Below, piece after piece: positions 23,467 through 36,291 of a DNA stretch of 64,000 nucleotides. Below the pieces are notes generated by a model. It was not told the DNA's origin, searched no databases, and saw nothing but the letters and a program-made list of their open reading frames with translations. Every line of letters starts with the position of its first letter. Position 1 is the first letter of the stretch. Both the position numbers and the translations under genes were made by a program. This DNA comes from Erysipelotrichaceae bacterium (GTDB lineage Bacteria > Bacillota_I > Bacilli_A > Erysipelotrichales > Erysipelotrichaceae), in contig JAFULQ010000026.1 of assembly GCA_017473265.1 (NCBI GenBank), positions 62,001 through 126,000 of the forward strand, written 5' to 3'.

Positions 23467-25701
23467 CTATTCTTCAAGTGATTTCACAAACACTTCACGA
23501 GGCTTACTTCCTTGAGCAGGACCAATAACCCCTTCTTGTTGTAACATATCAATAATTTTAGCAGCACGGTTATAACCAAAACCAAATCTTCTTTGCAATA
23601 AAGAAGTACTAGCTTTCTGTTCCATAACTACAAACTTTACAACTTCATCATACATTGGATCTTGAGGAGTATTTCTAAAGCCACTATTTTCAGATGGCTC
23701 ATCTAAGATGACAAAGGCATCATCAAAGAATGGTTTTGCTTGTTCAGATACATAATTAGTAATACGTTCTACCTCTTGATCAGAAACATATACCCCTTGA
23801 ACACGGATAGGACTAGATTCACCCATTGGTACATATAACATATCTCCATAACCTAATAAACGTTCTGCACCAACTTGATCTAAAATTGTACGAGAATCGA
23901 TTCCACTTGATACTGCAAACGCAATACGAGAAGGTACGTTATTTTTAATAGTACCAGTAATAACATCCGTACTTGGACGTTGTGTCGCAACAACTAAATG
24001 AATACCTGCAGCACGTGCCAATTGCGTAATACGTTGAATATATCCTTCCACTTCTTTACCAGCTACATTCATTAAATCCGCTAATTCATCAATAATAACT
24101 ACAATATATGGCATCGCCTTTAAATTTGCTTCAGGATGCTTTTTCACATAGTCATTATATTCACTAATTTTACGAACTCCTAATTTAGAGAATGTATCAT
24201 AACGTTGATCCATACGAGTACAAATAATTTCTAAAGCTCTAGCCGCTTCTTTACTATCTGAAATAACCGGACCAATTAAATGAGGTACCTTATGATACAT
24301 TGTAAATTCAACCTTCTTAGGGTCAATTAATAACATCTTCAATTCCGCAGGAGTTGTACGTAATAATAATGAACAAATAATAGAGTTCATACATACAGAT
24401 TTACCACTACCTGTAGAACCAGCAATTAATAAGTGTGGCATACGATCCAATTCACAATACACAGGATTTCCTAATAAATCCTTACCTAAAACCACTAATA
24501 GTTTTTTATCTTTTTTATCTGCAGGAATCAAATCACATAACTCTCGCATTTTAACCATCGTGTTTTCAACATTAGGGATTTCAACACCAACACCATTTCT
24601 ACCAGGAATAGGTGCTTCAATACGAATATTCTTCGCCGCTAATTCCATTTTAATATTGTCTTGTAAATTTAAAATCTTATTTACTTTAACACCAACATCT
24701 GGCTTAATAACAAACTTTGTTACTGCAGGACCAATAATTGTTTCCACTAAAGTTGTAGGAATTGAGAACTGCGCTAAAATATCAACCAATTGTTTACCTT
24801 TAGTCTTCGCAGCTAATTCATTATTACGACTCTTCGTTTGTACTGCACGATCCAACATTTTCGCAAGAGTTGGTAATTTATAATCCGAATAATCATCATA
24901 ACGTTGTGTTTGAGGCAATGGCGCTTTTTCATCTGTTGTTTCCTCTTTTTTAACTTCAACAACAGGCTCTTCCACCTTTACTTCTTCCTCAACAAACACT
25001 TCTTCCTCTTCATCTTCTTCAATAACAAAAGCTCCTTGTTGAGGCACTTTAGAGGTAATATTAATAAATTCAATTTCTGGTTCCTCATAATCCTCTTCTT
25101 CAACAACAACCTTTCTTGCAGGCTTCTTAGCCTTTTTATTTTTAGGCTGATGAAAAAGAGATTGGATACGACCCTTCAAATCAGAAAAATACTTACGATC
25201 AATTAATAATAAGATTGCTAATACAAATAAAGCAACAATCACTACCCAAGTACCTGTAACATCCACCAAACTTGAAGTTACAAAATACAAACAAGCACCA
25301 AATAAACCACCTTGAAGTAGTGCTTCTTGTCCTTTTAACACAAGAATTCCATTATTCCAAAACATTTGAAAAGCTTCTTTACCAATTACTTTACTTTCAG
25401 GAATGGCAGTCCATAATAATAAGGCAACTAAGATAAAACTAATACCCAAATACATTCTTGATTTTAATTCTGGTAATTGTTTTCTAAAAATAATGTACAC
25501 TCCAGCAAGTAAGATCAATGCAAAAACTACTGCATAATACGTACCGAACAAAAAGGTCATTACATTAGCTAACAATGCACCAAGAAAACCACTTTTCATA
25601 ATACCAATCAAAGATACAGTAATCATAATAATGGCATAGATATATAAGAAGATTTCTTGTTCAAGAGATTCTGTTTTTTTCTTCTTTCTGTGTTTTGCCA
25701 T
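23467..25701 (-). CDS. ftsK: DNA translocase FtsK/SpoIIIE
   Basis: Hexameric DNA pump that clears the septum; in spore formers it also moves the forespore chromosome. The 744 residues consist of four membrane segments (about 18-36, 41-72, 83-100, 131-166), an acidic linker (200-256, many E and D), the motor with P-loop GSTGSGKSV (428-436) and VVIIDELADLM, and a C-terminal gamma winged helix that reads KOPS-like DNA sites. No second FtsK is in the window, so it may serve both division and sporulation. Position after rnj matches Bacillus spoIIIE. Confidence 0.95.
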   Translation of the reverse strand: MAKHRKKKKTESLEQEIFLYIYAIIMITVSLIGIMKSGFLGALLANVMTFLFGTYYAVVFALILLAGVYIIFRKQLPELKSRMYLGISFILVALLLWTAIPESKVIGKEAFQMFWNNGILVLKGQEALLQGGLFGACLYFVTSSLVDVTGTWVVIVALFVLAILLLIDRKYFSDLKGRIQSLFHQPKNKKAKKPARKVVVEEEDYEEPEIEFINITSKVPQQGAFVIEEDEEEEVFVEEEVKVEEPVVEVKKEETTDEKAPLPQTQRYDDYSDYKLPTLAKMLDRAVQTKSRNNELAAKTKGKQLVDILAQFSIPTTLVETIIGPAVTKFVIKPDVGVKVNKILNLQDNIKMELAAKNIRIEAPIPGRNGVGVEIPNVENTMVKMRELCDLIPADKKDKKLLVVLGKDLLGNPVYCELDRMPHLLIAGSTGSGKSVCMNSIICSLLLRTTPAELKMLLIDPKKVEFTMYHKVPHLIGPVISDSKEAARALEIICTRMDQRYDTFSKLGVRKISEYNDYVKKHPEANLKAMPYIVVIIDELADLMNVAGKEVEGYIQRITQLARAAGIHLVVATQRPSTDVITGTIKNNVPSRIAFAVSSGIDSRTILDQVGAERLLGYGDMLYVPMGESSPIRVQGVYVSDQEVERITNYVSEQAKPFFDDAFVILDEPSENSGFRNTPQDPMYDEVVKFVVMEQKASTSLLQRRFGFGYNRAAKIIDMLQQEGVIGPAQGSKPREVFVKSLEE

Positions 25702-25712
25702 AAAAATCCTTT

Positions 25713-27380
25713 CTATTCTTCAACTACATTAATTTCAATAATTGCAGGTAAAATCATTGGACGTTTACCTGTTTCCTTTAATACATACTTTTGAATACGT
25801 TCTCTTGCTTCCATACGCGTACTCATATTATCATAAATACCATTTTTAACATTTTCAGTAATTGTATTCATCATAATATCCGCAATATTTTTAACAATAT
25901 AATCCGCATCCTTTAAATAGAATACCCCACGAGATTGTACATCTGGTCCTCCAATAATTTCTTTCGTTTGGAAATTACATACAATACCAACCACAATAAC
26001 CCCATCAGTACTCAATGTTTCACGATCTCTCAATACATATCCAGTAACATCTAAGTTATCATCACCGTCAATTAAAACTTCTTCTAAATTGATTTCTTGA
26101 TAACAAGACTTTAAATTTCCATCATCAAATAAAGCAACTTGACCATTATCTAAGATAACAATCTTATCCGGTGTCAATCCCATCATCGTCGCAATATTCG
26201 CATTAGAAATCAACTGACGATATTCACCCTTAATTGGAATGTAATATTTAGGTCTAAATAAATACATCATCATCTTTAAATCTTCACCAGAAGCATGCAT
26301 ACTTAATACCTTCTTAGAATTTAAAGTAATGATATTTACATCTTCTTTATACAATTCATTTTCCATAATTCCAGCTTCAATTTCAGTACCTGGAACAATT
26401 GGAGAGGCAATAATAATCGTATCATTTTCACGCAATTCAACTTTACTATCTTCTTTCATCGCAATACGATTCATTGTTCTAAACACTTTATGACCATTAC
26501 CTGTAATTAAAATGATAATATCATCTAAATCATTTCTAAATGAACTACTTGGCAATTCTACTCCCATAGGAATACGATAATAACCCAAACGTTCATTTAA
26601 ACGAATTAATTCTTTTAAACCATCATCATAGATATAAATCTTCTTATTCAAGCGACAAGCCACTTCAACAATTTCCATAAAACGATAGAAATTTTGATGA
26701 TATGCCGTAATAATTATACGACCAGGCGCATCTTCCATAGGTGTAGAAATATAATCTTTAATACGATGACTAGGAGAAGTATGACCTTTACGATCCGCAT
26801 AACAAGACTCTGTTAATAAGCATAATACACCCTTTTTACCAATTTCAGCTAAATCTGAAATATTACACATAAAAGACTCTTCACGAATATCATAATCAAT
26901 AATAAACTCACCTAAATACACAACATAACCTTGTGGAGTATCAATCGCAACCCCAAAAGCATCCGCAATAGAGTGCGTAACACCAAATGAACGAACTTTA
27001 ATGTTACCAATTTTGAATTCACCAGAACGTTTTACACGATGAATTTTTAGATTGCGCAATCCTTCCTTATGCGCCATATTCGAAATTAATTCTGCAGTTA
27101 AAGGCGTTGTATATACAGGAATATTAATTTGTTTTAATAAGTATGGTAAAGCAGCCATGACATCATCATGTGCATGCGTAATAATAATACCTTTTACTCG
27201 ATCTTGGTTTTCAATCAAATATGAAAAATCAGGAATAATAACTTCTACACCCAATTGATCCGCATCAGGATACTTCAAACCTGCTTCAATCACAATAATA
27301 GAATTATCAACTTCTACTACAAAAAGATTTTTACCAGATTCATCTAAACCACCAAGTGCAAATACTTTAACTTGACTCAT
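25713..27380 (-). CDS. rnj: RNase J-family protein with degenerate active site (J2-like)
   Basis: A 555-residue beta-lactamase/beta-CASP protein of the RNase J family, which degrades and matures mRNA in Firmicutes. The fold is complete to the C-terminal domain, but metal ligands are missing: the HxHxDH motif reads H69-A-H71-D-D73-V74, the later aspartate is E158 in VVYLGEF, and the final histidine is K384 in PIKGEYR. H136 (VTHSIADAF) remains. It is therefore probably a weak or inactive partner of a separate RNase J1, as RNase J2 is in some Firmicutes. Position before spoIIIE matches rnjB of Bacillus. It has its own promoter (27409-27437). Confidence 0.88.
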   Translation of the reverse strand: MSQVKVFALGGLDESGKNLFVVEVDNSIIVIEAGLKYPDADQLGVEVIIPDFSYLIENQDRVKGIIITHAHDDVMAALPYLLKQINIPVYTTPLTAELISNMAHKEGLRNLKIHRVKRSGEFKIGNIKVRSFGVTHSIADAFGVAIDTPQGYVVYLGEFIIDYDIREESFMCNISDLAEIGKKGVLCLLTESCYADRKGHTSPSHRIKDYISTPMEDAPGRIIITAYHQNFYRFMEIVEVACRLNKKIYIYDDGLKELIRLNERLGYYRIPMGVELPSSSFRNDLDDIIILITGNGHKVFRTMNRIAMKEDSKVELRENDTIIIASPIVPGTEIEAGIMENELYKEDVNIITLNSKKVLSMHASGEDLKMMMYLFRPKYYIPIKGEYRQLISNANIATMMGLTPDKIVILDNGQVALFDDGNLKSCYQEINLEEVLIDGDDNLDVTGYVLRDRETLSTDGVIVVGIVCNFQTKEIIGGPDVQSRGVFYLKDADYIVKNIADIMMNTITENVKNGIYDNMSTRMEARERIQKYVLKETGKRPMILPAIIEINVVEE

Positions 27381-27408: not shown

Positions 27409-27437
27409 AGTATACCACAAAAATAAAGACCTGTCAT
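27409..27437 (-). promoter_or_regulatory. promoter of the rnj-ftsK-BMP unit
   Basis: On the minus strand: -35 ATGACA (27432-27437), 17-base spacer, -10 TATACT (27409-27414) preceded by TGG (extended -10). The -35 overlaps the miaB terminator hairpin. The rnj ribosome site AAGGAGG follows about 16 bases later. Confidence 0.68.
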
Positions 27438-27450
27438 ATAGATAGGTCTT
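27417..27450 (-). terminator. terminator after miaB
   Basis: On the minus strand AAGACCT and AGGTCTT form the stem around an 11-base loop that can pair further, followed by TATTTTT. The miaB stop codon overlaps the first arm. Confidence 0.8.
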
Positions 27451-35496: not shown

Positions 35497-36291
35497 TCAC
35501 CATTCTATTTGCAATCCTACCCCTACTTCATGTACAGGTAAAGATTTCATCATTTCTGCTTTCACCTTTAAAGATACACAGTGACATGGATAAAGTTCTG
35601 CTATTTGATTTTCTTTAAAATAAGCAATAGTATTCATACTTTGTTCATTTAAATCAAACATATGAAATCCACCAATTACACCAAGAATTCGTGTATCATT
35701 ACATACCTTTTTCGCATATTCTACAATATTACAAATCCCACTGTGTGAACATCCAGTAATTACATATAACCCTTCACGTGTTTTATATACCAATGCAGAA
35801 TCATCATATACATAATCATCTACTTTTTGATTATCCATAATTTGATAACCAATCGGTTCTTTATTTTCAAAAGAAGTCACTCTAGGAATTTCACCTAAAT
35901 ATACTAATTCCGAATTTATCCAATATGGTTCTTTAGTAAAATTACAATTCCATTTTTGTTCAAATTCAGATTTCGAATACGGAGCGCCAATATACGCTTC
36001 GTTTTTATACTTAGGTATGCAAATATCTGGATGAGTCAATATCGTAGTTTTAACACCCTCTAGATGAATCAATCCTAATGTATGATCATTATGACCATGG
36101 GATAATACGACATAATCTAATGTAGTTAAATCAATCCCCATCTTTTTGGCATTCTCTTTAAAAATATGAGAATACCCAGTATCAAATAATACTTTTTGAT
36201 TCTGTGATTCAATATAAAAACTAACTCCTGGTTCACCTAAATAATATTGATCAATATAGGTATTATTATCAACAAGTACGGTTAGTTTCAT
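35497..36291 (-). CDS. MBL-fold metal hydrolase (COG1237 type)
   Basis: A 264-residue metallo-beta-lactamase-fold protein with the complete metal motif LSHGHNDHTLG (H65, H67, D69, H70), VITGCSHSGICNIVEYA and GGFHMFD, matching the COG1237 group that includes the archaeal ribofuranosylaminobenzene phosphate synthase-like proteins. The bacterial members have no agreed reaction. The end CHCVSLKVKAEMM is usual for the group. In the accessory run 33661-39030. Confidence 0.88.
   Translation of the reverse strand: MKLTVLVDNNTYIDQYYLGEPGVSFYIESQNQKVLFDTGYSHIFKENAKKMGIDLTTLDYVVLSHGHNDHTLGLIHLEGVKTTILTHPDICIPKYKNEAYIGAPYSKSEFEQKWNCNFTKEPYWINSELVYLGEIPRVTSFENKEPIGYQIMDNQKVDDYVYDDSALVYKTREGLYVITGCSHSGICNIVEYAKKVCNDTRILGVIGGFHMFDLNEQSMNTIAYFKENQIAELYPCHCVSLKVKAEMMKSLPVHEVGVGLQIEW

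Follow-up and report, generated by a model that had tools for sequence, protein, structure and literature searches.

A ribonuclease J2 gene with a partly lost metal site in an Erysipelotrichaceae bacterium

Introduction

RNase J1 degrades RNA, and its customary partner RNase J2 has little activity or none. In RNase J1, His79 and His390 serve a single metal and Asp164 bridges both, whereas RNase J2 from Staphylococcus epidermidis carries four changes (D78H, H79A, D164E and H389Q) and yet has one Mn bound, with the Glu at the Asp164 position taking part in its binding (PMC7864078). The ligands of the second metal are not conserved in J2s (PMC5383250). Reports on what J2 does vary between species. 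RNase J2 from Enterococcus faecalis was reported to be an active ribonuclease that requires His69 and His71 for full activity, which is lost in the H69A and H71A mutants (PMC5383250), and that from Streptococcus mutans is potent in vitro and binds J1 most strongly (PMC6759994). In Staphylococcus aureus growth is that of the wild type in a J2 active-site mutant but not in a deletion strain, and the authors proposed that the active site is provided by J1, with J2 being mainly structural (PMC3937233). Our search of the open-access literature found no paper on a J2 from Erysipelotrichia and none in which J2 is called a pseudoenzyme.

Residues at the metal site

The gene rnjB lies on the minus strand at 25713..27380 of the window, the whole 64,000-nucleotide stretch of DNA that was analysed, and encodes an RNase J2 of 555 amino acids plus a stop codon, an annotation that draws on TIGR00649, Pfam domains, the best PDB match and the tree described below. 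The protein comprises a metallo-β-lactamase domain (PF00753/PF12706, Lactamase_B), a β-CASP domain (PF22505, RNase_J_b_CASP) and an RNase J C-terminal domain (PF07521; PF17770, RNase_J_C). It scores 442 bits against the RNase J family model TIGR00649 over positions 1-546 (cut-off 400), and 457 bits against the NCBIfam RnjA model NF047419, below the cut-off of 820 for RnjA.

Alignment with the J1s of Bacillus subtilis and S. epidermidis equates residues H69, H71, D73, V74, H136, E158 and K384 of the window protein with the J1 ligands H74, H76, D78, H79, H142, D164 and H390. The HxHxDH motif at codons 69-74 (27159..27176, minus strand) is thus H-A-H-D-D-V, Val standing in for the final His; codon 136 (26973..26975, minus strand) retains His, codon 158 (26907..26909, minus strand) encodes Glu in place of Asp, and codon 384 (AAG, 26231-26229, minus strand) is read directly as Lys in place of His. 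These residues had all been named in the original prediction, and translation and alignment bear them out. Since all 76 intact RNase J proteins in the alignment read HHDHHDH at the seven positions, the three substitutions (H79V, D164E and H390K in J1 numbering) are real departures and not the result of misalignment, and in the alignment of the window protein with RNase J no alternative residue restoring a ligand was seen.

The lost ligands are those that serve only the second metal, at the H79 and H390 positions; the first site retains its ligands. The same holds for S. epidermidis J2 (PDB entries 6k6w and 8yyf-8yyk), which resembles the window protein in its domains and fold, in the loss of H79 and H390 and in the change of D164 to Glu, and whose five Mn ligands all have counterparts in the window protein (H69, H71, D73, H136 and E158); it differs in having His at the D78 position, Ala at H79 and Gln at H390, where the window protein has Asp, Val and Lys. 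The early description of the metal site as dismantled is therefore overstated: the two second-metal ligands are gone, but the five first-metal counterparts remain. E. faecalis J2 has H69, H71 and D73 at identical positions and likewise does not conserve the second-metal ligands, but is reported to be active in vitro.

A second family-specific change is found in the β-CASP domain, where residues 293-299 of the window protein are TGNGHKV and intact RNase J proteins have TGSQGEP with an invariant Gln. This Gln is replaced by Gly in all 83 close relatives of the window protein and is retained in S. epidermidis J2.

Assignment to RNase J2

The closest solved sequence is that of S. epidermidis RNase J2 (E value of 8.5e-102), but B. 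subtilis J1 scores almost as high (6.6e-101), so the sequence search alone leaves the choice between J1 and J2 unsettled. In a tree of 61 rows, from which the seven ligand columns had been removed, J1s and J2s are split by a single branch (SH-aLRT 99), with the window protein and S. epidermidis J2 on the J2 side. A FastTree analysis of 218 rows agrees with this tree: it gathers all 142 sequences that carry a changed site into a single group with no intact sequence inside it, which may be called a J2 clade on the assumption that the root, not inferred here, lies on the J1 side.

The AlphaFold model of the window protein (mean pLDDT 89.5, pTM 0.76) superposes on the S. epidermidis J2 structure with an r.m.s.d. 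of 2.1 Å over 438 columns and a TM-score of 0.93 by target length. Its top structural match is the integrative model of B. subtilis RNase J2 (RnjB) in complex with J1 (PDB entry 9a5v), with which it shares the fold. Full-length matches to J1 and to J2-J1 have large r.m.s.d. values of 8-9 Å, which may be read as a different placement of the C-terminal domain across the low-confidence linker 440-450 of the model. The tree, the nearest solved structure and the gene order identify the window gene as RNase J2, bearing out the original prediction of a J2-type partner, and the genome also encodes an intact J1.

RNase J1 in the same genome

Exactly two RNase J genes above the cut-off are present in the genome. 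The second, intact rnj that the original prediction advised looking for is P0002 (G000:C14:64879-66639), a J1 with the motifs HGHEDH, IHSIPD, GDF and HGEYK and all seven ligands, which is 28% identical to the window protein. P0002 and B. subtilis J1 (PDB entry 3zq4) share family and domain order with the window J2 and differ from it in retaining every ligand; P0002, moreover, adjoins the peptide deformylase gene (def), whereas the window gene sits by ftsK.

J1 accompanies J2 in nearly every J2-bearing genome. In one genome that apparently lacks it (G173), the J1 gene is split across two contig ends. J2 was also found without J1 in three incomplete genomes (82-88% complete) of genus code g124 (G204, G231 and G254); the genes that neighbour J1 in G164, namely def, an ftsW/rodA-type gene and a close pfkA homologue, are missing from them too, so that a missing segment is likelier than a real loss of J1. 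The absence is probably an assembly gap, real loss being the less likely case. Two further records (G163 and G193) gave no candidates even for ftsK and look unreadable.

Ligand loss among J2 relatives

The state of the window protein at the seven positions, HHDVHEK, is the commonest one (38 of 83) among the J2s that are more than 45% identical to it. None of these 83 close relatives has His at position 79, where 71 have Val; the H390 position is Lys in 69 and His in 11, and Glu replaces D164 in 82, as in S. epidermidis J2. Because the positions of H71, D73 and E158 are near-invariant in this set, part of the metal site is still constrained. His362 of the phosphate pocket is invariant. The His at position 136 has been lost in 31 of the 83, on top of the other changes. 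The original prediction that the protein has lost more ligands than usual thus does not hold: the window protein has three changes against four in S. epidermidis J2, shows the most frequent pattern of its family and keeps an H136 that many relatives lack.

Gln replaces H136 in 24 of the 83 relatives (Holdemania and its relatives, e.g. L005-L008 and L046-L048), so that in this part of the family erosion has reached the first metal site as well. A number of J2s (L010, L012, L017-L019 and L021, and L011, L014, L033, L130 and L054) have His at the position of residue 384, where their relatives have Lys. H79 and D164 are still changed in these proteins, and the Lys may have reverted to His on at least two branches.

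Across the J2 clade the erosion of the metal site is graded, from the loss of one ligand to the loss of all seven: among the 142 changed J2s, six ligands are kept in 15, five in 19, four in 59, three in 32, two in two, one in 11 and none in four. The H390 position is changed in nearly all of them, and in several outer J2s (L066, L165 and L170) its replacement by Ile is the sole change. At the other extreme, Mollicutes-like J2s from genomes that read TGA as sense (L225-L240) retain no more than two of the seven ligands, and in some cases none, with states such as NAYNSDK and DKESGNQ; these proteins are full length, are encoded beside an intact J1 and show a stronger loss of the metal site than the window protein.

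Selection and gene neighbourhood

Comparison of rnjB with its 87%-identical relative L003 gave a dN of 0.082 and a dS of 1.16 (saturated for more distant relatives), and the resulting dN/dS of ~0.07 indicates that the gene is under purifying selection. Over 16 matched genomes J1 and J2 share the same domain conservation profile, with J2 evolving ~1.5 times faster. A conservation of the C-terminal domain of J2 that might have been taken as evidence for a scaffold was seen with entropies from unmatched sets and disappeared with matched genomes.

The gene downstream of rnjB, at a distance of 11 bp, is ftsK/spoIIIE (23467..25701, minus strand). In 65 of 70 J2 loci it is the next gene downstream, in the orientation of the J2 gene, and miaB lies upstream in 41 of 63; rnjB is also near spoIIIE/ftsK in B. 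subtilis. In the gap between miaB and rnjB, the scan and the sequence point to a terminator-like stem (27426..27450), followed on the minus strand by TATTTTT, and TATACT, a −10-like hexamer, immediately precedes the rnjB start. Both fit the original proposal that rnjB leads an operon with ftsK, a reading that is suggestive only, because shuffled sequences yield promoter-like matches at least as often as this region does.

Function of the window protein

The missing ligands are the normal state of RNase J2, which makes the finding an ordinary one. Very probably, rnjB encodes an ordinary RNase J2 that binds at most one metal, has little or no intrinsic 5′-3′ exonuclease activity and acts through its pairing with J1. 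By analogy with S. epidermidis J2, the single metal would be held by the five retained first-site residues. The protein itself might keep a weak nuclease activity, and in a heteromer the catalytic site would be that of J1, in line with the proposal for S. aureus. This partnership is favoured by the mainly structural role proposed for S. aureus J2, while weak activity is left possible by the active E. faecalis and S. mutans proteins; given the activity of the former and the in vitro potency of the latter, the role should not be taken as purely structural.

The same five residues might instead hold a catalytic metal in a one-metal ribonuclease with its own activity, as reported for the J2s from S. 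epidermidis and E. faecalis, a reading that we regard as possible, if somewhat unlikely. The presence of counterparts to every single-metal ligand, the near-invariance of H71, D73 and E158, the invariant phosphate-pocket His362 and the loss of activity in the E. faecalis H69A and H71A mutants (PMC5383250) all favour it, but the relatives that have lost H136 have an identical gene order, so an incomplete site is tolerated, and the S. aureus active-site mutant has no phenotype (PMC3937233). A more speculative proposal, which we consider improbable, is that in Erysipelotrichaceae J2s the conserved Lys at the H390 position makes up for the charge of the missing second metal, so that one metal and a lysine together form a site with a separate function, and that the graded loss records the stepwise conversion of an enzyme into a structural partner.

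An RNA-binding scaffold, the alternative offered in the original prediction and taken here as metal-free and acting without J1, would fit the three changed ligands and the retention of Ser360 and His362 in the phosphate pocket; it is very doubtful, however, as the first metal site is complete and J1 occurs in nearly every J2 genome, the apparent absences that were followed up being contig breaks or missing segments. Decay into a pseudogene, which the loss of conserved catalytic residues might suggest, is refuted by the full-length frame without stops and the low dN/dS, and the HHDVHEK pattern is shared with many relatives, so the early view of a complete, non-decaying gene is upheld.

On its own the window gene adds little beyond a correct rnjB annotation for an uncultured gut bacterium. 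The 142 J2s, in which the number of retained ligands runs from six down to zero, form a more useful series, from which one could learn which losses make the protein inactive and whether it still binds J1 once the metal site has gone.

A distinct protein with a metallo-β-lactamase fold, unrelated to the rnjB finding, is encoded at 35497-36291 of the window (minus strand) and has an intact-looking HGHNDH motif.
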